DNA from: Paludibacteraceae bacterium
GTDB lineage: Bacteria; Bacteroidota; Bacteroidia; Bacteroidales; Paludibacteraceae
Direction of reading: 5' to 3'
DNA: 35,590 bases
NCBI GenBank assembly: GCA_905233925.1
Contig: CAJOFV010000019.1
Location: 1 to 35,590 of the forward strand
The notes under the pieces are model-generated. The model was not told the DNA's origin. It did not search any database and worked only from the letters and a program-made list of their open reading frames with translations. A program made the position numbers and the translations under genes. Shown in pieces: positions 5,901 to 26,372 of this stretch. Each line of letters opens with the position of its first letter. The first letter of the stretch is position 1.

Positions 5901-8555
5901 TGTAAAGTGCCTGTGCACTCAACGAATGTGGTGCTTACTTCGGCGCACTACGAAACCAACATTTTCCAAACCGGTACAGAGCACAAGCCCGCTGACGGTA
6001 CTGCTTATCGCGCCGTTACAACACCGAGTTTCAACTCCATTTATGGCACTCAGGCTCTATTCGACACCTTATATATATATGGTGTAACAGAAGCCGCCAA
6101 GGCTCACCGTGCTTGGGAACTGGATGTTCAAAAGGGCTACAACGTGCCCGCGTTCACCGCCACAGACGGAGAAACAGCCGGTACAGCCTATACACCGTGC
6201 TTCGTATTTGCCAAGAGCGGTAATGATTATGTGTATGTCCGCACCTTCGATGCGGCAACCAAGTCGCTGAATATTAATGCGGATGGCAAAAAACTGTGGT
6301 TCACAGGCTATCATCCTGTTGCTTCCACGGCCATTCAGCCTGCTATCGCTATCAGCGGTAACGCGGATATCTATCTGTCCAACACAGAAATCACCGCAAT
6401 TGGTACTGTGCTGACCGCAAAAGACGGCACACTGACCGTTCATGCCCGTGGCACGAATGGCCTGAATGTTATCGGTGATGCATCGGCTATCTCACTTGAC
6501 GCGAACAGCACAACCGCTTTGGTAATTGAAGACAGTTGGTTGAGTGAGGCTTCCGCCGTACTGAATCCGAACGGAGCTGCCGGTAAACCGACCATCGACC
6601 TTGGTACCAAGGACAACAGCGTTACCATCAACGGCACGCAAATTACGCTCAAGAACGGTGAGAAGATGGCGGTTGCTTATCTCAAAGACGGCGTAGAGCA
6701 AGTGGAAGGTGCAGTAGCTATCAACGACGGAACCATTCTCGGCGAGGCTGAACTTGGTCTGCCTGCAACTACTACTATTGACGGCGGTACATTCAACGAC
6801 GGTAAGGTTCGCGTTTATGAGAAACAGGGCGGCAAGGGAACACTTCCGCGCAATAGCAATGACGAGATTCTTGGTCGCTACGAAATGGCGCCTGAGGCTG
6901 TCCCCGCGACTTATGGTCACGCGCACCTTACTGCTGATACAAAGGGCAAAGTTTACCCAATGCTCAAGAACAACGATATTTATATCTTCGAAGAAGAGAA
7001 GAACGAAGGCGCTTGGACTGCCGGTGAGAACTGGAACAAGGATAATGCTCCGAGTGAAACAGATATCGTTATTGTGCAAAAGAATGTGGTTGTCAGCACA
7101 TCTGTTACCGTTGCTTCACTTACTATTGAGAAGGGTGGCAGCCTCACAATCGGTGAGGGTGGTTCGGTAACTATCACGGAGAACGGTTACGACCAGTTCA
7201 AGCGCAGCGAATACGGTGACTTGACCGTTAAGCAGGGGGGTAGTTTCGAGACCAACAAGAGTTCCTTTGAGGTTAAGAACTTCTATATTGAAGCTGCTAT
7301 CGGCGACAATACGTACGCAGCCAAGTCCGGCGAAGTGAAACATGCCGAGTCTCTGATTGTGGACGGCGATGCATACTTTGACCTTGTACTTGACCAATCC
7401 GGCAAGTGCTCGCCGGGATGGTACGACTTTACCGTTCCGTTCGAAGTGGATGGCTCCACCGGTATCAGCCGCTATCAGGACAACGCATGGAACAACAGCC
7501 TGAAGGTAGAGACGCATTACGCGATCATGGCGCACTATGAGGACTTGCGCGCTGCCGGTCAGTACAGCTGGAAGAAATATCGCGGTGTGTTGTATCCGAA
7601 CCAGTGCTACACCATCACCATTAACAATACAGCCCCGCTTTACCGTTTCCACAAGAGAGCCGGTGCTCCTGTTATCGCAAGCAAAGTACTGCCGTTGCAG
7701 GTAACCGAAGGCGAAAGCGAGACCCGTGGTTTCAATGCGTTAGGTAATGGTAATCTGGCTATCCGTGATCTGGATGTTGCTTCTGACTTCAAGGTGCAAT
7801 TGTACGACCACAAGGATAATGCCTATACTGCTTATACCGCAGGTGCTGTGAAGTTTGCAGTAGGTTCGGCGTTCTTTGTTCAGGTTAAAGATGCCAATGT
7901 CGGAACTCTCAACTTGCGCGAGACCAACGCTTCCAAAGCATTGCGCGTAGCAGAACGCACTCCGCGTACGGTAAGCGAGTTCACGTTGGAACTGACCGCA
8001 AACGGAGCCGAGAAAGCCGCAGACCGTCTGTTCGTATCCGCAAGTGAGGAAGCGACTGATACGTATGAAATTGGTCACGACCTCAGCAAGTACGGTAATC
8101 CGTCAGAGGCCAAGCGTGCACAACTGTGGTGCAACGCGTACGGCATGCAGCTCTGCGACGCCGAACTGCCGCTGGTGGATAATACGGCGGACTTTGCAAT
8201 CGGTTTGTATGCTCCGGAGGCCGGCATGTACATGATTTCCGTAGCAGGTGCACCGGAAGCAGCCGAGATTTACCTGACCAACGAGGCAGGTGAGGCTATC
8301 TGGAATCTGTCTGTTTCGGAATATGCACTGGATCTGTCGAAAGGCACTACCAACGGCTATGGTCTGCGCATTGTAGCACAAGAGTTGGTAGAGGAACAGG
8401 AAGAAGAGCAAGAGCAAGAGCAGGAAGAGATTACAACTGCTCTGAAGAACAAGGGCGCGAAGGCAACAAATGTCCGCAAGCAACTGATTAACGGTGTGCT
8501 GTACATTCAACGCGAAGGCGCTATTTATGATGCCACCGGCAAACGTGTACAATAA
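2925..8555 (+). CDS. Very large secreted surface protein with tandem Ig/MBG-like modules, E/Q-rich linker and C-terminal tag (about 1876 aa)
   Basis: ATG at 2925 follows an A/G-rich leader and gives a signal peptide (MKQIYKVIKTLLILTTLTLGAWNSNAWG). Ig/MBG-like repeat wording (ITYGQTLAESELTGEV..., ISYHQTISNSNFSGGAV...). Ends RKQLINGVLYIQREGAIYDATGKRVQ. The ORF track starts at an upstream GTG (2856), judged unlikely. Confidence 0.9.
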   Translation: MKQIYKVIKTLLILTTLTLGAWNSNAWGNTVSVSGSGFNNKLSNNVVTLGGNHVSFRFESSSISYTKNILGSVTGIELATLDKGKSVSGNLKWTLNGGLTLAIQSVRVVASNSYAATLYIDDGKGHTVNQSKSGLGNDYDKSLTTISSSSTGVEIKFTSTVSSKYSTCKPQITTIEVTYTITPNNPGASSEEKTIYVTIDKDNIANDEKLQLNTSDCFTVPDNDSHFYSSLSYYRSAETGLNATTDANVSNNYFNATKVGTYYVKAKISAVNNCHAASGDYSGNITINVIRHPSSITMNNGEVFVKVKDNVAASQLDLDDLIKSQVGDGVVSYTVTSANSSKATIGTGNIFSATDCGEYTISARAQQSALYAQSDPVSFKVTVKKIKPSVTTLPAASAISYHQTISNSNFSGGAVTWNGYTVAGTFSWKNGSLAPGAGNSCEAVFTPLDETRFEKPDNCFVNVPINPIDQTITWNLDEDDEYISGTVFDAVATSHVDGLNVYYTIDASQSQIAEMQGNVLIVKQTNKTVTVYAHQDGNDNWNAAPVVSKNVKTCGAKPDNWSVTAKDITYGQTLAESELTGEVRLGEVVIAGQLSWKVPATLPDAGKHENEYDVVFTPEDGNTYGSVTFKVTVNVNKANPELTWHINHSLRENTNYSNFVTSTNKAALTISTNNNNLLQVNDNVLKTGSVESATNCTIYVSQAATKNYNAIEQVSWAVTIRPKVNVCLPVTLNGDLMEDMTIASTKASWCGTNEQGHDKYLTSYVRYTQAEGIALGSWKDGFDGISWSKLINLITGNGEFEWSTKSIDLSFTGVPDRISFSTQLQVVEFEWINEWKEARLTADKFILSESADGVDYTSVQTKEGTVSFNEALKPTTRYIRIEYKGNFTGFIKNLQISRKQYITSTDNLTFGTETHPLQESQPVTIHYSSLGTCAEQSGDITVSTDNDAFYVDTETITTGVGIDQQDEATVRVRCNDINKTGHVVFTAFDGTECKVPVHSTNVVLTSAHYETNIFQTGTEHKPADGTAYRAVTTPSFNSIYGTQALFDTLYIYGVTEAAKAHRAWELDVQKGYNVPAFTATDGETAGTAYTPCFVFAKSGNDYVYVRTFDAATKSLNINADGKKLWFTGYHPVASTAIQPAIAISGNADIYLSNTEITAIGTVLTAKDGTLTVHARGTNGLNVIGDASAISLDANSTTALVIEDSWLSEASAVLNPNGAAGKPTIDLGTKDNSVTINGTQITLKNGEKMAVAYLKDGVEQVEGAVAINDGTILGEAELGLPATTTIDGGTFNDGKVRVYEKQGGKGTLPRNSNDEILGRYEMAPEAVPATYGHAHLTADTKGKVYPMLKNNDIYIFEEEKNEGAWTAGENWNKDNAPSETDIVIVQKNVVVSTSVTVASLTIEKGGSLTIGEGGSVTITENGYDQFKRSEYGDLTVKQGGSFETNKSSFEVKNFYIEAAIGDNTYAAKSGEVKHAESLIVDGDAYFDLVLDQSGKCSPGWYDFTVPFEVDGSTGISRYQDNAWNNSLKVETHYAIMAHYEDLRAAGQYSWKKYRGVLYPNQCYTITINNTAPLYRFHKRAGAPVIASKVLPLQVTEGESETRGFNALGNGNLAIRDLDVASDFKVQLYDHKDNAYTAYTAGAVKFAVGSAFFVQVKDANVGTLNLRETNASKALRVAERTPRTVSEFTLELTANGAEKAADRLFVSASEEATDTYEIGHDLSKYGNPSEAKRAQLWCNAYGMQLCDAELPLVDNTADFAIGLYAPEAGMYMISVAGAPEAAEIYLTNEAGEAIWNLSVSEYALDLSKGTTNGYGLRIVAQELVEEQEEEQEQEQEEITTALKNKGAKATNVRKQLINGVLYIQREGAIYDATGKRVQ

Positions 8556-9942: not shown

Positions 9943-11136
9943 TTACAAGTGCGTGCGCATAACGTTGACTACGCTGTCAAACTCGGCACGGTACTTGGCG
10001 GGCACAGGGTCTGCGGGCGGACTCTCGAGTTTCAAGGGATCCACAGGTGTGCCGTTCTTCCAAACACGGAAGTCGAGGTGCGGCCCTGTAGCCGCGCCAG
10101 TAGCACCGACGTAGCCGATAACCTGTCCCTGACTGACGTGCGAGCCGACAGCAATGCCTTTGCCGTACTTGCTGAGGTGCAAGTAGGCGGTGGTGTATGT
10201 CGAATTATGCTTGATTTTGACCATGTTTCCCGCCTGTCCCTTGTAGGCTTTCTCGATGACCACGCCATCGCCTATGGAGACCACGGGCGTGCCGGTCGGT
10301 GCCGCATAGTCCACGCCGGTATGCGGGCGGACAATCTTGAAGACAGGGTGTTTGCGGGCGTAACTGAAGTGCGAGGAAATGCGCTTGTAGTTCAGCGGCG
10401 CCTTAAGGAAAGACTTGCGGAGGCTCTTGCCGTCGCCGTCGAAATAGGTGTGGAGTTCGCCCGCTTCGAAGTAGAACGCCTCTTGCCACTTGCGTGCGTG
10501 GTAGAAGTTGCAGGCGTAAATCTGGCCGATGCCGACGCGTGTGGAATCCACGTAAATCTCGTCGAAGTAAACCCTGACGGAGTCGCCCTTCTGGAGGCCG
10601 AAGAAGTCAATAGTCCACGCGTATATTTCGCTGAGTTCGAGCGCGAGTTCGACGGGCAAATCGTTGCCGACCATGGCGTTCCAGAGACTGGATTCGATGC
10701 CGACGCAGGCGCTTTTCGCCTCATAACGCAGCGGTTTCTTATGGTGCTCGGCGTGCATGGAGTCCGTCAAATGGAGTACGGTTACTTCGCGTGAGGAAGC
10801 CTTGTAAATCCAGTAGCAGAGGTGCTCGACGCCTGCTGTGTCAGTCTGATGCAAGCCCAGGTATTCCTTTCCGGGACGAAGGCTGCGGACATCAAACTCG
10901 GTGCAGGGCAAGGTAGCCAGTTGTGCGAGTTGCTTGCGGTCAGCGCCGAGACGGCCGAGAATACCTCCGAGGGTTTCGCCCTGTTTGACGAAGCCTGTGT
11001 CTACGCGGAACGAGTCAATAGGCAAACCGTATTCGTAACGTACGGGTTCGGGGGTGTCGTCATATGTTTCGCCTTTTGTGCAGGCTGAAAGAACTGCTGC
11101 GAGAGCGATACATATATATATAAGGTGTGACTTCAT
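9943..11136 (-). CDS. M23 family metallopeptidase lipoprotein, 397 aa
   Basis: Lipobox LSAC; HTGVDYAAPTGTPVVSIGDGVV...YLHLSKY...GATGAATGPHLDFRVWKNG M23 motifs. Confidence 0.92.
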   Translation of the reverse strand: MKSHLIYICIALAAVLSACTKGETYDDTPEPVRYEYGLPIDSFRVDTGFVKQGETLGGILGRLGADRKQLAQLATLPCTEFDVRSLRPGKEYLGLHQTDTAGVEHLCYWIYKASSREVTVLHLTDSMHAEHHKKPLRYEAKSACVGIESSLWNAMVGNDLPVELALELSEIYAWTIDFFGLQKGDSVRVYFDEIYVDSTRVGIGQIYACNFYHARKWQEAFYFEAGELHTYFDGDGKSLRKSFLKAPLNYKRISSHFSYARKHPVFKIVRPHTGVDYAAPTGTPVVSIGDGVVIEKAYKGQAGNMVKIKHNSTYTTAYLHLSKYGKGIAVGSHVSQGQVIGYVGATGAATGPHLDFRVWKNGTPVDPLKLESPPADPVPAKYRAEFDSVVNVMRTHL

Positions 11137-16501: not shown

Positions 16502-17413
16502 ATGAGAAACGCGATTTTACCTATTGTTATTGCCATCAGTTTGTGCTCGGTACAACTGACCGCTAACGCCCAGCTTACGGCCGGCAGTCCGCAGCTTATC
16601 GCTGACGGCGGTACGCAGCCGGTCTTGTCACCTGCCGGCGATTATGTCTTGGTGCGCGATGCCGGTGAAGCCGGTTTGACACGTATAAACATAAAAACCG
16701 GTGAACGGCTGTTGGTCGCTTCCGACAGCGATATCGACGGCGATGTTATATTCTCTGACGGAGGAACGATGATAGCCTATAAAACCATCGAATACCGTAA
16801 CCATCTGGCTTATCGTACTATCAAAGCGGCAAACCTGCAGACGGGCGAAATAAAGGTTCTTGACAAACCTGCACGCGAGAGTTTCGCTTTCCGCTTTGCG
16901 GGTGGAAAAATGAAAATCGCCAAGCGCACCACTATGCGTAGCCAGCGGTTGCTGACGGATATACGAACCGTTGAGCATGAATATGTACCGGCTGTCGAAG
17001 ACGATGACCTTGTGCTTTATGACGGCAACGTGCGGAAAGTGTTGAATCCCAACGGGAAAAATATCTACCTCTGGCAACAAATCTCCCCCGACGAACAGCA
17101 TATCGTCTATGTGGCAGTGAATGACGGCTGCCATACGTTCGTTTGCGATATGAATGGCAAAAACGTCGTGGACTTGGGGCATTATATTGGCGCACCGACC
17201 TGGATGGGAAACGATTGGATCATCGGTCAGCAGGACGAAGATGATGGCCATAGAATGACCGCCTCACGCCTCGTTGCCATCCGTCCTGACGGCTCCGATT
17301 TTCAGATTCTCCCAATAGCAGGGCTCAACATGCCCATCAATCCGAATGCCGCTGCCAACGGAAAAGTGACCTTCGAAAACGAGGGCAAAATATATCTCGT
17401 TGAAGTGAGATAA
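16502..17413 (+). CDS. Secreted TolB/WD40-like beta-propeller protein, 303 aa
   Basis: Signal peptide (MRNAILPIVIAISLCSVQLTANAQ); DGGTQPVLSPAGDYVLVRD, WQQISPDEQHIVYVAVNDG propeller-like repeats. Confidence 0.75.
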   Translation: MRNAILPIVIAISLCSVQLTANAQLTAGSPQLIADGGTQPVLSPAGDYVLVRDAGEAGLTRINIKTGERLLVASDSDIDGDVIFSDGGTMIAYKTIEYRNHLAYRTIKAANLQTGEIKVLDKPARESFAFRFAGGKMKIAKRTTMRSQRLLTDIRTVEHEYVPAVEDDDLVLYDGNVRKVLNPNGKNIYLWQQISPDEQHIVYVAVNDGCHTFVCDMNGKNVVDLGHYIGAPTWMGNDWIIGQQDEDDGHRMTASRLVAIRPDGSDFQILPIAGLNMPINPNAAANGKVTFENEGKIYLVEVR

Positions 17414-17445: not shown

Positions 17446-20400
17446 ATGAATAAGCACTATTTGTCAATATTGCTGTTTGTTCTTTATTCCGCGTCATTGC
17501 ACGCGGTGGCACCGAAGATATATATCAATCCCGGACACGGCGGCTATAACTCGAATGACCGGAATATAGTCACTATCAATCACGCTTCCGGCGACCACGA
17601 CGGCTTTTGGGAGTCGCAGGCAAATCTGACAAAAGGTTTGTACCTGCGCGATATGTTGCAGGCGGCAGGCGCGACGGTGTATATGTCCCGCACCGATAAC
17701 CGCTCCGGCTACCGCGACGATAAATCAATCGCCAACACCATCGGTGACCGACCGCTTTCCACCATCGCCAAAGAGGCAAGCGGCAAGGCGGATTTTTTCC
17801 TGTCGATTCACTCTAACGCCGGAGGGAACAGCACTACTACGGCGGTCAATTACCTGCTGCTGATGCTCACCGGTACAGCCGGTTCGAGTGACTGGGGCTC
17901 TTCGTTCAAGTATGCCGAAGCAAAAACGGCTGCGGACTATGCTTGGACAAGACTCTCGGACAACCTGCTTACTGCATGGACGAGCACTTCGAAACGGGTC
18001 ATGTCATATACCACGTATACCGTGATTGCGCCCTCGTACCTGACTATCCCGGGATATTTGAGTGAGGGCGAGTTCCATGACTATAAGCCCGAAACTCACC
18101 GTTTGCTGAACAATGACTACTGTAAACTGGAAGCCTATCGCTTCTTACAGGCGTTTTGCGATTATTATACATCTTCGCTGACGCGGCCATCTACCGGTGT
18201 TATATGTGGTGATGTCCGGGATAATACTGCCAAGATGACCTCTACAACGCTTTATCAGAAGGCAAAAGACGGCACAAAAGACGAATATACACCCCTCAAC
18301 GGCGCTAAGGTAAAACTGAAAGATGGCAGCGGCAAGGTGATAGCGACTTATATATGTGACGATGAATACAACGGCTTTTATGCCTTCTGGGATGTCGCGC
18401 CTGGGACATACACCGTACAATGCGCCGCAGAGGGACATGCTTCCAATTCGCAATCCGTGACCGTTACAGCCGGCAATATAACTTATAATAATGTCAAACT
18501 CGGCAGCGGATCGGGTGACGGAATGGATGATGTGGTAGTCAGTCCGCTGGGCGTGCTGTACGACACGGTTATCAACCATTCGGCTGCAGCCTGGCTCGAC
18601 GACAAGACTATCCGCCGCGCTCTCGTGAGAGATGACAAACTATATGTCCTGACGGACGATAGTAAAGTGCATATTGTCAATGCCAATAGCGGCAGCGAGA
18701 GCGGGTTGTTGAGTACAAGCGGCATAAGTGTCAGCAGCGACAATGCCAACACAAAACTAATCAATGATATCGCACTCACTTACGACAAAGTGCTTCTTGG
18801 CTGTCAGTTGGAACAAACCACATTCAGTTTGAGCAACTCCTGGCAGGTATATAAATGGGCAGACGATAATGCTGCGCCGACAGTGTTCAACCAGTCGCGG
18901 ACAACGAGCACTTGTGGTAACTTTGCTACGGCCAACACAGGATATACATGCTGCGTCAAAGGCAGAGAAAGTTCATATGCCATCTACACGTTGGCACGTT
19001 CCACCGCCAGTACTACATACAGAGCTGTGTCACTTGGTTTAGCTGGCACAACGAAGTATAGCAAGGACGATAGCAATATGAACACATCAACCATCGCAGA
19101 CGATACACGTATGGTTGCGTCACCGTATAGTACCAGTGATTTCGTTCTCGAAAGTGCTTCTATGCACCCGACTCTCTATTACGCTACTTGGGTTACAAGC
19201 GGCACAACGGGTAATCCGCTCACGGCTTATAGTACGCTCACGCTGCCTGATGTGGCTCTTACCGGCGGAACTTTTGTGACCTACGACAACCATATACTGT
19301 ATATTACCCCTTACGGCACCGACAACCTCGGTGTGGGCATATACGACGCCACGAGCGGTTTGGGTTCCGCATCGCTTGTCAAAACTCTTTATCCGGAAAC
19401 GGTGCTGCCGCTTGCTTCGGCGGGATACATGACCGCTGCGGCAGAAGTGGATGGGGATGAGCTGGTGGTAACCTTGTATGTTCAGAATCGGGGCATAGAC
19501 CGCTGGCGACTCTCACAAACGGACATGGAAGTGCATGATGAGGTGATTAATCCGAGTGCGGATTTGGTGGATGGAGATGCGCCCAAGCGGGAATTCCGCG
19601 CAGGATGGATAAGTACGTCTTGGGCTTTGGACTGGCCGGTTACTATGGGCACTTCGGCATCTGTCGTCAGCACGCAGCAGAATAATCTCCGTACATTACT
19701 GAACCGCATGCAGTCGGCGCGGATGAATGCCGTTTATTTCCAAGTGCGTGGCATGGGAGATGCTATGTATAACTCTGCCTACGAACCCTGGAGCAAGTAT
19801 ATTACCGGTACACGCGGCACAGCGCCCTCGTATGACCCGCTGGAGTTGGCTGTCGCTGAGGCGCACAGTCGTGGTATGGAATTGCATGCCTGGATTAACC
19901 CTTATCGTTATTCGTCATCCGCCGGCACATACAGCAATACGTTGAGCAATGACCTCGCCAAAACGCATAACGACTGGCTGCTGTACTATGGCGATGCTAC
20001 GCCGGACACGGTTATACTTAATCCGGGAATACCGGCTGTCAGGACATATATAGCGAATCTCGTTGTGGACATTATTTCCAAGTACGATGTAGATGGTATT
20101 GTCTTTGACGACTATTTCTATATAAACGGCAAAACAACTGACGCGATGGATGCAGCGGCATTTGCGGCTTATAATCCGGACAATCTGAGCCGTGCAGACT
20201 GGCGGCGGCAGAATGTGAACAAGATGATTGAAGAAGTGCGTAATGCCATCAAGGCTGTCAAGCCGTGGGTACGTTTCGGCGTTGCACCTCCGGGGGTGGC
20301 GGCGACAGAAACAGCCGTGGCAAACAAGTACGGCGTGACGAAGAGTCCTGCTCCAAGCGGCTATGACTGGCAATATAACGGGCAATATTCCGAACCGGTG

Positions 20401-23400
20401 CAATGGCTCAAGGATCAGACTGTTGATTACATATCCCCGCAGGTATATTGGCGTATAGGGCACAAGACGAACGACTATGAGGCACTTAGTGCATGGTGGG
20501 TCGCCGTTGCCAAGCAATTCGGCAGACATGCGTATATTTCTCAATCCTACAGCGCGGTTAATGCGGCTTCCAACGCTTCCGAAATGGCCGATGAAATAAA
20601 CGCAAACCGTACGGCTGCGGCCGCGAACGAGACCGTGACCGGTTCGGCACTCTTCCGCATGGGACAGACCAACGATGCCTTTGTCAGCAAACTGACTGCC
20701 GCCTATACGGAACAGGCTTTGCCGCCTGCTATGACATGGTATAGTGCGCCGGATTTGGCTGCTCCCACGAACTTGACGCTTACCGGCACAACGCTTTCGT
20801 GGCAGCACGCAACAGCGGAACGCTATTCGGTCTATGCCTACCCGAAAGGCGGAAACCAGACGCAGGCACTTGCATCGTCTGCTTACCTTCTGGGCATTAG
20901 TTACAGCAAGTCCTTTGACCTTAGTGCTGTCGTGAACCTTGCTGACAAAACCATCGCTGTATGTGCGTTGGATCGTTATGGCAATGAGCATACTGCAGCA
21001 CTTTACAACGCGGCAACAACGCCGGAAGTGTCGGGCATGGAGGGCGCGGATATTTACGCTTCCGAATTGACAATGACCAAGAGTGGTGATACATACACTT
21101 TCTCTTACCGCCTCAATGAAGACGCCACGGATGTGACGTTGCAGCTGTTGTATGAAGGTGCTGTTATTCAGACCAAGTCATTCGGTGCACAAAGCAAAGG
21201 GCAGCGGAGCGGTACGTTGAACGAATCGGAGATTAACTTCCCCGAACGCAATACTGCCGACTATTTGACGTGGGCGATTAAAGCAACGGCGCGTCCGGTT
21301 AATGCATTGACCAAACTTTCGGATGACGGAACGCAATACCAGTTCTACCGTCCGTTCGGCGTGGCGGTTGATAATAATCCCGAGAGCGAATTTTTCGGGC
21401 GGGTCTATGTGACCAACACCAAGAATGGCACTTGTGCCGGTGGCGGACGTACAACTGCGAACGGTCTGTTTGCTTTCGATGCCGAACTGAACGCCTTGAA
21501 TAATTCGGCATACACAGGCGGCGTGACATGGAACAACGCTACCTCATCCGGTAACAGCCCGTTCCGTTTGGCAGTTGCGCCGGACAGCCGTGTCTTCCTC
21601 TGCGACTGGGCGGACAACCATTCGGGTATATGGATTGCGCCTGCAGGTGGTATAACGGGTAACTTTACGCAATTGTTCGCAGGGCTTAATCGCGCATCTT
21701 CGGGGTTATGCACGAACAGCAGCAGCGTGCCTGTCCACGGCTCTATTTCCGGCTGTTGGGTGGAAGGGCTTGGTGCTGACAGTAAACTATACACTATGGA
21801 TGAGGACTACACCGTGGATGGCCAAACATATAACCTCTTGCGCTATGACATCGGAGAAGCAACATCCTGGACAGCAGCGCCGTCAGCGGTGGTCTTTAAT
21901 AACTATGCCAACGGGAAACCCCTATGGAACAATGTCCTGAACGTCGTTTCTGACCTCCACCACGGCTGGTGGATTATTCAGCACCGCTTCGCGGAAACAT
22001 CCGAAGTGCCCTCACTCATTCACGTCCTCAACGGCGCTGTGGACTATAACTCCGGCGGAGAACAGTTGCTCGAAAATAGCAAAAACGGCGGACTGGCAGT
22101 CAACTTCGACGGCTCGCGCATCGCCACTACCGGCCAGAATCAAATCAACATTTGGGACGTAGCCTACGATGCCAACGGACACCTGACGGACATCTCGCCC
22201 GCCTTCGAGATTACCGCCTCCGACATCAGCGGACTTGGCGAATCATCCAATGACGTGGCGTTTGACCCCGCCGGAAATATCTATTATGTCAGCAACACCA
22301 CCGAGCGGCTTGTAGTTATCGGTCTGCCCAAAACAGACAATAGTTTCACGACGCCTGCCCGCGCGACCTTCACCATTCCGTTGCCCGACGAAGCCCCTGC
22401 ACTTGATGTGCTCGTTACGGAATGGGAGCAGTCCGGATTCACCATTGACTTCCGCACAACGCCTGTTGCTACAGGAGTGGCGGTCAAGATAGGCTCGCTA
22501 CTGACAGAAACGTTGCCGTTGGAGACCCTGGTAGCGCATACGGCTACAGGAACGGCTGCTGCCGGTTATGTCAAGCACATCACCCTTCCGGACATTGACC
22601 TCACCACCTACGCTGGTCATACACTGACCCTCAAGTGGATGGCCACAGATGCCGTAGTGGCGCAGACAGAACTGACCATCCCGACACTTGTCTCGGGCAG
22701 CACGAGTGAACTCCCTGAAACAAACAATGTCATTGTGCTCCCGGACGCGACACTCACGCTCGACCTCAGCAGCGCGAGCGGGGCAATGACCCTTCATAGC
22801 CTCGAAGTGTACCCGGGCGGAAAAACCATCGTCAGCAACGGCACGCTGACGCTTGATGACCTTATTCTACGCGTTGGTTGGACAACGGCGCATACGCGCT
22901 TCCGCGCCCCGAAACTTGCCATCATGAACACCGCTTCCATAACGCCCGCAAATGCCTATATGGACTGCGTCATTGACTACGCGCAGTATTATCCGATTGC
23001 AGTTCCCTTCGCCGTCACACGCAGCGCCATAACCTATCGCGATTACCCGTCTGCACCCGCAGCAAGTGGTGTTATCCTCCGGCAGTATAACGGCGCACAG
23101 CGCGCTACCGGCAGCACCGGCGATAACTGGCAGACCGTCACGCCCGCAACCCTCGTGCCCGCCAACGGCTACGCCATCATCGCCAAACGCATGCCCGGAA
23201 CGATGTACAGCACCATCCGCATGCCAATGGACATGAACGCGACGCAGAACACTGTCTCTGTCACGGCGTATGGGGTAGGTACAGGTCTTTGGAATAATGT
23301 CGGATGGAACTTTATCGCCAACCCATATACCGTAGCCTTTAACGGCAACGACGAAACAGCATTCGCCGGCTCCTTGCAAGTACAAGGCGATGGCTCGGGC

Positions 23401-24138
23401 ATACGCTATGCCACCATTCCGACGCCCGACTTCCAGGACTATTACCAAGTGCCGGTGGACGAAGCGGCGCTCGAACCGATGAGTCCGTTCTTCGTACAAG
23501 CAGGTGCAAACGGCGATGTTACTTTCCAACCTGCGCAGAAGAACCCGACACTCGCCCCACCGTCCACCGCTCATCCGTTCAACGTCCATTCCACCGACCT
23601 CCGCTTGCGTTTCACAGGCGCTGCCGGTTTTGACCAGACGTATGTTCTTTTGGGGGAGAACTTTACGGATGAACCGGATTTCAATGCTGACCTGCCGAAG
23701 GAGTTCGGACGAGCGCCGAAGATTTGGACGAACCACCCGACAGACGACCAAAGTCCGTTCGCCTCGATTGCTTTGTCCGATGAGCAGCAGGATTATGTAA
23801 TCCCTGTTTCCATCCAAACCAATGCGGAAGGCGCCTACACGTTTGCACTCAGTGACAAGAGCACGCTCGGCAATATTACGCTGGTCGAACTGACAGACAA
23901 TGGCAATCCCGTGGCGAACTTGTTGGAGGAAAGCTATCGTATCACGTTGCCTGCCGGAACGCTTACAGGACGCTTCGCTTTGCGTCTCTCCCGTGCCCAG
24001 GAAACAACCTCAAGCGACCAACAGCCCGCAACCGACGCCCCGCAAACGGCTGCAAGAAAGCGTTTGCAAGACCAGCGCGTCGTAATTGATTGCAACGGAC
24101 ACACCTATGACATGTTAGGAAATGAAGTGACTCAATGA
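17446..24138 (+). CDS. 2230-aa secreted fusion: N-acetylmuramoyl-L-alanine amidase (Amidase_3), carboxypeptidase-regulatory-like module, propeller-like segment, GHL10/DUF187 glycosidase-like domain, second propeller-like segment, C-terminal tag
   Basis: KIYINPGHGGYNSND, WESQANLTKGLYLRDML, DFFLSIHSNAGG and YLSEGEFHD for Amidase_3; FRAGWISTSWALDWP...MNAVYFQVRGMGDAMY...YDPLELAVAEAHSRGMELHAWINPYR...DVDGIVFDDYFY...YISPQVYWR for GHL10; end RKRLQDQRVVIDCNGHTYDMLGNEVTQ. Confidence 0.9.
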   Translation: MNKHYLSILLFVLYSASLHAVAPKIYINPGHGGYNSNDRNIVTINHASGDHDGFWESQANLTKGLYLRDMLQAAGATVYMSRTDNRSGYRDDKSIANTIGDRPLSTIAKEASGKADFFLSIHSNAGGNSTTTAVNYLLLMLTGTAGSSDWGSSFKYAEAKTAADYAWTRLSDNLLTAWTSTSKRVMSYTTYTVIAPSYLTIPGYLSEGEFHDYKPETHRLLNNDYCKLEAYRFLQAFCDYYTSSLTRPSTGVICGDVRDNTAKMTSTTLYQKAKDGTKDEYTPLNGAKVKLKDGSGKVIATYICDDEYNGFYAFWDVAPGTYTVQCAAEGHASNSQSVTVTAGNITYNNVKLGSGSGDGMDDVVVSPLGVLYDTVINHSAAAWLDDKTIRRALVRDDKLYVLTDDSKVHIVNANSGSESGLLSTSGISVSSDNANTKLINDIALTYDKVLLGCQLEQTTFSLSNSWQVYKWADDNAAPTVFNQSRTTSTCGNFATANTGYTCCVKGRESSYAIYTLARSTASTTYRAVSLGLAGTTKYSKDDSNMNTSTIADDTRMVASPYSTSDFVLESASMHPTLYYATWVTSGTTGNPLTAYSTLTLPDVALTGGTFVTYDNHILYITPYGTDNLGVGIYDATSGLGSASLVKTLYPETVLPLASAGYMTAAAEVDGDELVVTLYVQNRGIDRWRLSQTDMEVHDEVINPSADLVDGDAPKREFRAGWISTSWALDWPVTMGTSASVVSTQQNNLRTLLNRMQSARMNAVYFQVRGMGDAMYNSAYEPWSKYITGTRGTAPSYDPLELAVAEAHSRGMELHAWINPYRYSSSAGTYSNTLSNDLAKTHNDWLLYYGDATPDTVILNPGIPAVRTYIANLVVDIISKYDVDGIVFDDYFYINGKTTDAMDAAAFAAYNPDNLSRADWRRQNVNKMIEEVRNAIKAVKPWVRFGVAPPGVAATETAVANKYGVTKSPAPSGYDWQYNGQYSEPVQWLKDQTVDYISPQVYWRIGHKTNDYEALSAWWVAVAKQFGRHAYISQSYSAVNAASNASEMADEINANRTAAAANETVTGSALFRMGQTNDAFVSKLTAAYTEQALPPAMTWYSAPDLAAPTNLTLTGTTLSWQHATAERYSVYAYPKGGNQTQALASSAYLLGISYSKSFDLSAVVNLADKTIAVCALDRYGNEHTAALYNAATTPEVSGMEGADIYASELTMTKSGDTYTFSYRLNEDATDVTLQLLYEGAVIQTKSFGAQSKGQRSGTLNESEINFPERNTADYLTWAIKATARPVNALTKLSDDGTQYQFYRPFGVAVDNNPESEFFGRVYVTNTKNGTCAGGGRTTANGLFAFDAELNALNNSAYTGGVTWNNATSSGNSPFRLAVAPDSRVFLCDWADNHSGIWIAPAGGITGNFTQLFAGLNRASSGLCTNSSSVPVHGSISGCWVEGLGADSKLYTMDEDYTVDGQTYNLLRYDIGEATSWTAAPSAVVFNNYANGKPLWNNVLNVVSDLHHGWWIIQHRFAETSEVPSLIHVLNGAVDYNSGGEQLLENSKNGGLAVNFDGSRIATTGQNQINIWDVAYDANGHLTDISPAFEITASDISGLGESSNDVAFDPAGNIYYVSNTTERLVVIGLPKTDNSFTTPARATFTIPLPDEAPALDVLVTEWEQSGFTIDFRTTPVATGVAVKIGSLLTETLPLETLVAHTATGTAAAGYVKHITLPDIDLTTYAGHTLTLKWMATDAVVAQTELTIPTLVSGSTSELPETNNVIVLPDATLTLDLSSASGAMTLHSLEVYPGGKTIVSNGTLTLDDLILRVGWTTAHTRFRAPKLAIMNTASITPANAYMDCVIDYAQYYPIAVPFAVTRSAITYRDYPSAPAASGVILRQYNGAQRATGSTGDNWQTVTPATLVPANGYAIIAKRMPGTMYSTIRMPMDMNATQNTVSVTAYGVGTGLWNNVGWNFIANPYTVAFNGNDETAFAGSLQVQGDGSGIRYATIPTPDFQDYYQVPVDEAALEPMSPFFVQAGANGDVTFQPAQKNPTLAPPSTAHPFNVHSTDLRLRFTGAAGFDQTYVLLGENFTDEPDFNADLPKEFGRAPKIWTNHPTDDQSPFASIALSDEQQDYVIPVSIQTNAEGAYTFALSDKSTLGNITLVELTDNGNPVANLLEESYRITLPAGTLTGRFALRLSRAQETTSSDQQPATDAPQTAARKRLQDQRVVIDCNGHTYDMLGNEVTQ
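17509..18165 (+). other. Amidase_3 domain within the 2230-aa protein (approximate bounds)
   Basis: Candidate Zn ligands H (NPGHGG), E (WESQANL), H (SIHSNA) and catalytic-type E (YLSEGEF) are all present. Confidence 0.85.
19582..20745 (+). other. GHL10 (DUF187/YngK/DigH-like) glycosidase-like domain within the 2230-aa protein (approximate bounds)
   Basis: FRAGWIST, HAWINPYR, DGIVFDDYFY, YISPQVYW motifs. Confidence 0.85.
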
Positions 24139-24908
24139 AGCGGCGTTGGGAAATAATGCGGTTTCTTGCAGCGGAGCAGCGGCAGCGCCGGCGCAAGGGG
24201 ATGATTTTTGTCTGTGTCATGGCATTGTTGTCCTATTGCGCTGTGCTGTGCTATTGGACGCTGCAACCAACCATTCCGAACAATCCCGAACCCTCTCAAA
24301 CCCTCTCGAATCATTCTGAATTATCCGGAACCATCGTAACCCATTCCTCAAATTTTCAAATCTTCCATACGGTTTCAGCCGATCGTTCGAGGCTTTGCCG
24401 AGATAAGAAATTTTCAAATTCTCAAATTTTCAAATCTTATTCGGTCTTTCAGACTTCCTCTGCCACTCCTCATGTTCTGGGTTCGGCTTCATCTGCGCCC
24501 CTGACCACTCCTCAACATGTTCAGACCATTACAAACTATTCTGAACCATCCGGAACCACCTTGAACTATCCTAAACTATCGCCAACTGCGTCTTCCCTTG
24601 CCTATGCGCCTTCTTTGGCGAGAAGCTTTGCTGCTTCCACCGAACAGACCGCAGCGCGGAAGGCCGGTCGGCGGTCAGGTTTTGTGGACGACCCTGACCC
24701 GCAGGATCCGGGAGACCCTTTGGCAACTGACCCGTTTGCGGATGACCCCGCTCCCCTTAACCCTGCCGACCCGCTCAACACGCCTGTTGGCGACTGCCCG
24801 TGGTTGCTCATCCTACTCTTTGTGCTTTACCGCCTCGGGATACAAAATCACGAGAATAATGCCCGAATCCGTGCAAAATCAACTTTCGTGCACGATTTTT
24901 GTAAATAA
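24135..24908 (+). CDS. Repeat-rich membrane protein of unknown function, 257 aa, N-terminal TM and C-terminal PVGDCPWLLILLFVLYRLG segment
   Basis: ATGA overlap with the preceding stop; hydrophobic segments MIFVCVMALLSYCAVLCYWTL and WLLILLFVLYRLG; S/T/P-rich middle and D/P-rich stretch DPDPQDPGDPLATDPFADDPAPLNPADPLN. Confidence 0.6.
   Translation: MKRRWEIMRFLAAEQRQRRRKGMIFVCVMALLSYCAVLCYWTLQPTIPNNPEPSQTLSNHSELSGTIVTHSSNFQIFHTVSADRSRLCRDKKFSNSQIFKSYSVFQTSSATPHVLGSASSAPLTTPQHVQTITNYSEPSGTTLNYPKLSPTASSLAYAPSLARSFAASTEQTAARKAGRRSGFVDDPDPQDPGDPLATDPFADDPAPLNPADPLNTPVGDCPWLLILLFVLYRLGIQNHENNARIRAKSTFVHDFCK
24271..24360. repeat. Degenerate 10-bp tandem array, about 9 units (ccattccgaa caatcccgaa ccctctcaaa ccctctcgaa tcattctgaa ttatccggaa ...)
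   Basis: Ten-base periodicity read directly; most units end in AA. Confidence 0.8.
24408..24439. repeat. TTTTCAAA-type degenerate repeat block
   Basis: AAATTTTCAAATTCTCAAATTTTCAAATCTT. Confidence 0.8.
24526..24585. repeat. Second degenerate 10-bp tandem array, 6 units (ccattacaaa ctattctgaa ccatccggaa ccaccttgaa ctatcctaaa ctatcgccaa)
   Basis: Ten-base periodicity read directly. Confidence 0.8.
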
Positions 24909-25616: not shown

Positions 25617-26372
25617 ATGAAAAAGCTAATCTTAGTTTTCGTAACGCTTTTTACTGCTATTCATATTAACGCACAGTTAACATATGAAGGGACACAGCAT
25701 GTTATTCGTTTTGGGACAGGCACACAAAGAATAATAGCTCAAAATATTGATTCACCTTCATCAGAACAGGATGCCATGCTCGTTGGGGATTATTTTATGA
25801 CTACAGACATGGGGCTTTCCGATGGACATACACATTATAATGTTTATAATGCCAATATGACCCTAGTAAAATCTTTCTTAATAGAAGGTGCATTTTTTAG
25901 TGTCCCTATCAGCAGTAGCTCAAATGGATTGTATGTGTGGAACTTTATTTCGAAAGAAATATTTACGACAAATGGCAAATGGACTTGTCTGGTTACAGAA
26001 TATAAGAAGGAAAATCTAACAGATGGAAATGGAACTATATTGGGAGAAGTGAAAAAAGTTAAAGAATTACGATTAGTAGATGAAGATGGTAAAATTCTAT
26101 CAATAATACCTTACACAGGAGATACCAAAAAAACATTTTTAAGTCTAGTTAAAATAGGCGACAAGTATAAATTGTTTGTTCCAACAGGAGATGATACATC
26201 AGACATTCCCTATGCTTATGACATATATTCCCTCCCCGGCTCTGGAAACGCTACTGATGTAAACGAAGTATCTGCTCTGCGCCACAATGTACGTAAGTAT
26301 TTGCAAAATGACCAAGTGTTGATTGACAGCAACGAAAGAACGTACAACATGCAAGGTCAACAGATAAAATAA
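25617..26372 (+). CDS. Secreted protein of unknown function with C-terminal tag, 251 aa
   Basis: Signal peptide MKKLILVFVTLFTAIHINAQ; C-terminus RKYLQNDQVLIDSNERTYNMQGQQIK. Confidence 0.85.
   Translation: MKKLILVFVTLFTAIHINAQLTYEGTQHVIRFGTGTQRIIAQNIDSPSSEQDAMLVGDYFMTTDMGLSDGHTHYNVYNANMTLVKSFLIEGAFFSVPISSSSNGLYVWNFISKEIFTTNGKWTCLVTEYKKENLTDGNGTILGEVKKVKELRLVDEDGKILSIIPYTGDTKKTFLSLVKIGDKYKLFVPTGDDTSDIPYAYDIYSLPGSGNATDVNEVSALRHNVRKYLQNDQVLIDSNERTYNMQGQQIK

Follow-up and report, generated by a model that had tools for sequence, protein, structure and literature searches.

The fusion gene and the origin of its GHL10 domain

The DNA analysed here (the window) is a contig of 35,590 nucleotides from a rumen bacterium of the Paludibacteraceae (GCA_905233925.1, CAJOFV010000019.1) whose genome, G000, is 77% complete. 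Its forward strand carries an uninterrupted open reading frame (ORF) of 2230 amino acids (aa) at 17446-24138, in which an Amidase_3 domain and a GHL10 domain are joined in a single protein. The features of this fusion gene are as follows.

17446-24138, + strand: fusion gene, 2230 aa; amidase, CPD-like domain, propeller 1, GHL10, Ig/Fn3-like domain, Ig-like domain, propeller 2, C-terminal extension, short tail
17446-17505, + strand: probable signal peptide, residues 1-20 (MNKHYLSILLFVLYSASLHA), by sequence inspection without a predictor
17518-18123, + strand: Amidase_3 domain, residues 25-226, with H31, E56, H122 and E207 (Pfam and alignments)
18289-18501, + strand: CarboxypepD_reg-like beta-sandwich, residues 282-352 (Pfam)
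18553-19515, + strand: beta-propeller-like region 1, residues ~370-690 (AlphaFold model; DUF4623 structure 4ftd among the fold matches)
19516-21045, + strand: inserted block, residues ~691-1200, GHL10 plus Ig/Fn3-like domain (absent from L041 and from relatives outside the fusion clade)
19591-20577, + strand: GHL10 domain, residues 716-1044, with R821, D888, D889 and Y890 (Pfam, PDB sequence match, alignment and fold match)
21352-22365, + strand: beta-propeller-like region 2, residues ~1303-1640 (AlphaFold model; propeller fold matches)
24016-24138, + strand: short tail at the C-terminus, stop codon included (..RKRLQDQRVVIDCNGHTYDMLGNEVTQ), a genus-wide tail motif (profile search)

The original prediction, made from the DNA letters, had placed Amidase_3 and GHL10 in one frame together with propeller-like segments, and our searches agree with it. 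Both enzyme domains exceeded their Pfam cut-offs, with 44.8 bits for Amidase_3 (residues 25-226; cut-off 27) and 214.7 bits for GHL10 (PF02638, residues 716-1044; cut-off 27.9, E 2e-63); a CarboxypepD_reg domain at residues 282-352 scored 38.6 bits (cut-off 32.3). When the PDB was searched by sequence, the sole strong solved relative was Cwp19 of Clostridioides difficile (PDB 5oq2, 5oq3; E 2.5e-68). AlphaFold models built from alignments of relatives covered residues 21-1200 with a mean predicted local distance difference test score (pLDDT) of 82.7 and residues 1190-2230 with a mean of 73.8. The modelled GHL10 part has the TIM-barrel fold of Cwp19, with a template modelling (TM) score of 0.90-0.92 on target (~0.91). 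The regions at ~370-690 and ~1300-1640, which flank GHL10, are all-beta in the models and appear propeller-like, the former resembling 4ftd (DUF4623) and the latter several beta-propellers, both at modest TM. The fusion is a new architecture made of known families.

Catalytic motifs had also been predicted, and candidate residues proved to be conserved in the alignments of both domains. The candidate zinc ligands H31, E56 and H122 and the candidate catalytic residue E207 are kept in 21 of 21 aligned sequences, and identically in a wider set of 14 amidases; these roles were assigned by motif, and the model has low pLDDT near some parts of the amidase. The pattern of His, Glu and His zinc ligands with a downstream Glu is shared with other Amidase_3 enzymes (CwlD, germination amidase 7rag, 4rn7, 8c0j). 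In contrast to these, the amidase of the fusion belongs to a divergent subfamily in Bacteroidota that has a GFWES motif and a CPD-like domain, many of its members also having a type IX tail. In the GHL10 domain, Q766, W816, R821, D888, D889, Y890, Q999 and Y1001 are kept positions among those named for the Cwp19 active site (PMC5765458), whose equivalents are numbered R132, D195, D196, Y197, Q77, Q295 and Y297; the conserved Arg, Asp-Asp-Tyr, Gln and Tyr are thus common to both proteins. Unlike Cwp19, which has Ser250, the fusion has Ala947, where the unfused relatives mostly have Ser or Gly. Cwp19 is, in addition, a single enzyme that carries CWB2 wall-binding repeats (PMC6016235), whereas the GHL10 domain of the fusion sits inside an amidase-propeller protein.

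A family-level search of 200 genomes returned full-length matches in G000, G162 and G185 only. Scanning GTDB added loci L036, L039 and L042, the last of these split by a frameshift, and a partial copy at L037 (L038 and L040 correspond to the loci already found in G162 and G185). Beyond the window, five other genomes therefore hold a full-length version, one of them frameshift-split, and one more holds a partial copy, which rules out an assembly artefact. The named fusion loci come from metagenome bins, and the host appears not to have been cultured. At L042 (7983-14736), the fusion is divided into frames of 1394 and 869 aa, and the frameshift is maybe an assembly error or the mark of a pseudogene.

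Relatives outside the fusion clade are amidase proteins of ~1230 aa without the GHL10 block, and in them the equivalent of residue 688 runs nearly straight into that of residue 1201. Judged from these alignments, the GHL10 block (~690-1200) is an insert in a pre-existing amidase protein family. The inserts form one clade (100/100) beside free-standing GHL10 proteins of ~840-950 aa, which are ~45-50% identical to them. One amidase protein, that of L041 (= G177), lies within the fusion clade (100/100) yet is without the GHL10 block; its junction has a longer linker than those of the outgroups, and it has either lost GHL10 or branched off before the insertion. In a tree built without the insert, the fusions form one clade at 79/94 only. 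Of 295 genomes in an order-level sample, 133 contained GHL10 and 9 contained the amidase subfamily. None of the long GHL10 frames fetched from that sample contained an amidase domain, and an order-wide fusion was not found; the same-frame combination was found in the clade of the window only.

Clusters and sorting signals of the unfused relatives

In six genomes, which span four GTDB families, free-standing genes for GHL10 and the amidase share one co-directional cluster with genes of the PKD, NAGPA and TolB-like types and with SusC and/or SusD: G018 (L118), G006 (L124), G136 (L046 then L045), G270 (L115), G435 (L116) and G307 (L117 and L137). The usual order is SusC, SusD, a gene for ~300 aa, PKD, GHL10, (one gene), NAGPA, TolB-like and amidase, with NAGPA placed before GHL10 in L115 and L116. 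A SusD-type gene lies upstream in 5/6 of these genomes; at L115, where the fetched stretch begins at the PKD gene, a SusC/SusD pair follows downstream. SusC itself could be seen at L118, L124, L117 and L115, and GHL10 is also found near amidase genes at L056 and L071. The clusters resemble SusC/SusD polysaccharide utilization loci in that the unfused relatives of both enzymes are accompanied by NAGPA, a PKD protein and SusC/SusD-type genes. The presence of NAGPA hints that phosphodiester-linked wall polymers may form part of the substrate. Because the two enzymes are fused here and are locus neighbours elsewhere, the evidence for a shared substrate is strong. A tandem pair of GHL10 genes was seen at L065 (1663-7931) and L066 (3144-9387), in G011 and G042.

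PF18962, the type IX sorting domain, is present on many of the cluster proteins, and the relatives of 1217 and 1227 aa terminate in it. G000 itself has a 2586-aa frame matching SprA_N (E 6e-184), which points to a type IX translocon gene in the genome. In the fusion protein, the short tail stands where its relatives have the type IX sorting domain. A profile of this tail gave 63 matches in G000, 30, 41 and 85 in three other genomes of the genus, and 0 in G018 and G270; all 20 of the 20 sampled matches in G000 end exactly at the stop codon. Within an order-wide sample, the tail is abundant in this genus only, and no Pfam or NCBIfam model corresponds to it. Counts of PF18962 run opposite to those of the tail (4 in G000, 6 in G177, 14 in G185, 20 in G162, 40 in G018 and 52 in G270), and orthologous GHL10 proteins of the genus end in either the tail or the classical domain. 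The tail apparently substitutes for the type IX sorting domain, and given this opposite abundance and the orthologues that end in one or the other, it may be a shortened sorting signal. Within the window, four proteins carry it (24016-24138, 2141-2266, 8433-8555 and 26250-26372), and its motif is roughly K-x-x-x-NG-x-x-x-I-x-RDG-x-x-Y-[DNT]-x-x-G-x-x-[VI].

Proposed function and alternatives

We consider it probable that the fusion is a secreted, and probably surface-exposed, bifunctional peptidoglycan degrader that scavenges the walls of other bacteria. We infer its catalysis, the order of its steps, its substrate, its export route and its nutritional purpose: stem peptides would be stripped from N-acetylmuramic acid (MurNAc) by the zinc amidase at the N-terminus, the glycan bared in this way would be cleaved by the GHL10 domain, and a single chain would carry out both steps extracellularly, as a means of feeding. 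The two propeller-like regions may serve as binding or spacing modules, and the PD40/TolB-like protein encoded upstream may be an accessory factor. Amidases are known to produce denuded glycan, which DigH (YddW), a GHL10 enzyme of E. coli, degrades (PMC12288456), and Cwp19 is a lytic transglycosylase (PMC6016235). By analogy with DigH, the GHL10 domain of the fusion may prefer peptide-free glycan. Tannerella forsythia scavenges peptidoglycan by amidase and lytic transglycosylase activities (PMC7670621); in contrast to the present case, these were measured in cell extract, and the accessible part of that report describes no fused enzyme.

Two consecutive steps in one secreted protein had been proposed in the original prediction. 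The SusC/SusD-type cluster of the relatives, whose two enzymes are fused in one clade, supports this proposal, with the activity itself being predicted from sequence. Given the cluster neighbourhood of the separate enzymes and their fusion in one clade, the two-step reading rests on more than domain content, and the neighbourhood of both halves in a secretion-and-uptake cluster is the most informative evidence. Several observations nevertheless weigh against the scavenging enzyme that we propose. PF18962, the canonical type IX sorting domain, was absent from the window protein in Pfam. Surface display, which had been predicted from a C-terminal tag, is plausible in that relatives carry PF18962 and another short tail stands in its place, but the argument is indirect. 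In contrast to SusC/SusD loci, no SusC/SusD gene lies near the fusion gene, either in the window or at the other fusion loci. At the GHL10 loci L061, L062, L064, L070 and L123 (genus and family), no amidase was seen within the stretch examined, and the GHL10 proteins encoded there may act on another glycan. The amidase protein of L041, which is without GHL10, indicates that the coupling is not obligatory.

The same missing type IX tail would suit an enzyme working in the periplasm on the cell's own wall, at septation or during turnover, as the equivalent of AmiC and DigH in one chain, and in E. coli the denuded glycans of the septum are indeed a substrate of DigH (PMC12288456). We regard such a self-wall enzyme as improbable. 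DigH is stand-alone at the division site, whereas the fusion is predicted to be secreted, and G000 also encodes a stand-alone 384-aa Amidase_3 protein (C12) and a separate 396-aa GHL10 protein (C68), which could serve own-wall work. Because of these separate genes, scavenging outside the cell is preferred over septal cleavage, and the septal role included in the original prediction is not supported. The closest unfused relatives have type IX tails and lie in SusC/SusD-type clusters, and the fusion is confined to one clade. The other target that had been suggested, scavenged wall material or the walls of other bacteria, fares better, since external scavenging fits the position of the unfused relatives in such clusters. 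That context also speaks against an antibacterial weapon, displayed or released for lysis of neighbours rather than for feeding. A secreted amidase plus glycosidase would be a lytic combination, as expected from these families; however, the setting of the relatives is an uptake cluster and not a toxin-immunity locus, and no recognisable immunity gene adjoins the fusion, so that we give the weapon very little credence.

The alternative to which we assign the most weight, while still thinking it unlikely, is that the substrate is a different bacterial surface polymer bound to peptidoglycan, for example teichoic acid or a wall polysaccharide with a phosphodiester linkage; the amidase would help to release it, and GHL10 would cut a non-peptidoglycan glycan. 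The clusters regularly include genes for NAGPA phosphodiester glycosidases, some loci that combine GHL10 with SusC/SusD have no visible amidase, and variation in GHL10 loops may allow a range of substrates according to the Cwp19 structure paper (PMC5765458). Against this, the active-site residues and overall fold of the GHL10 domain match those of Cwp19, a peptidoglycan enzyme, and NAGPA was not found in G000 (77% complete), G162 or G177.

More tentatively, and with somewhat less than even confidence, we propose that the scavenging enzyme belongs to a wider Bacteroidota system, a peptidoglycan-eating locus of the SusC/SusD type. It would comprise an amidase and a GHL10 enzyme, both at the cell surface, together with a phosphodiester glycosidase possibly detaching phosphodiester-linked wall polymers and an outer-membrane glycan importer, the two main enzymes having been fused in one rumen lineage. 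No description of a peptidoglycan-type utilization locus was found in the literature searched, which covered few subscription journals. If the proposal is true, it offers a candidate route for peptidoglycan sugars across the outer membrane of these bacteria, and scattered annotations of GHL10 and secreted amidases become a testable utilization locus. Having both enzymes in one protein would also allow amidase action and glycan cleavage to be probed by single-site mutants.

Neighbouring genes

Two further genes adjoin the fusion gene.

16502-17413, + strand: gene for a PD40/TolB-like secreted protein, 303 aa, directly upstream of the fusion; a conserved partner of the amidase gene
24135-24908, + strand: ORF of 257 aa that overlaps the stop codon of the fusion gene (4 bases); a relative was seen immediately downstream only at L036 and L042

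The 303-aa protein itself had no significant Pfam match; its relative at L045 has PD40 repeats above the Pfam cut-off. In every fusion locus, and in those family loci whose upstream sequence is long enough, the gene immediately before the amidase or fusion gene encodes a TolB-like relative, except that GHL10 precedes one amidase gene of L071. Phylum-wide, the same placement upstream of a secreted Amidase_3 gene was found in 10/10 loci (L167-L176). Because this placement recurs, and the flanking argS and M24 peptidase genes are conserved with the TolB-like gene in L036 only, we take the conserved unit to be the TolB-like gene plus the amidase or fusion gene.

The 257-aa ORF has two hydrophobic stretches, one N-terminal and one C-terminal (..PVGDCPWLLILLFVLYRL..). 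An M23 peptidase gene at 9943-11136, which precedes the fusion by six genes, encodes a relative of the DD-endopeptidases ShyC and MepM; it is conserved with its neighbours in L036 only.

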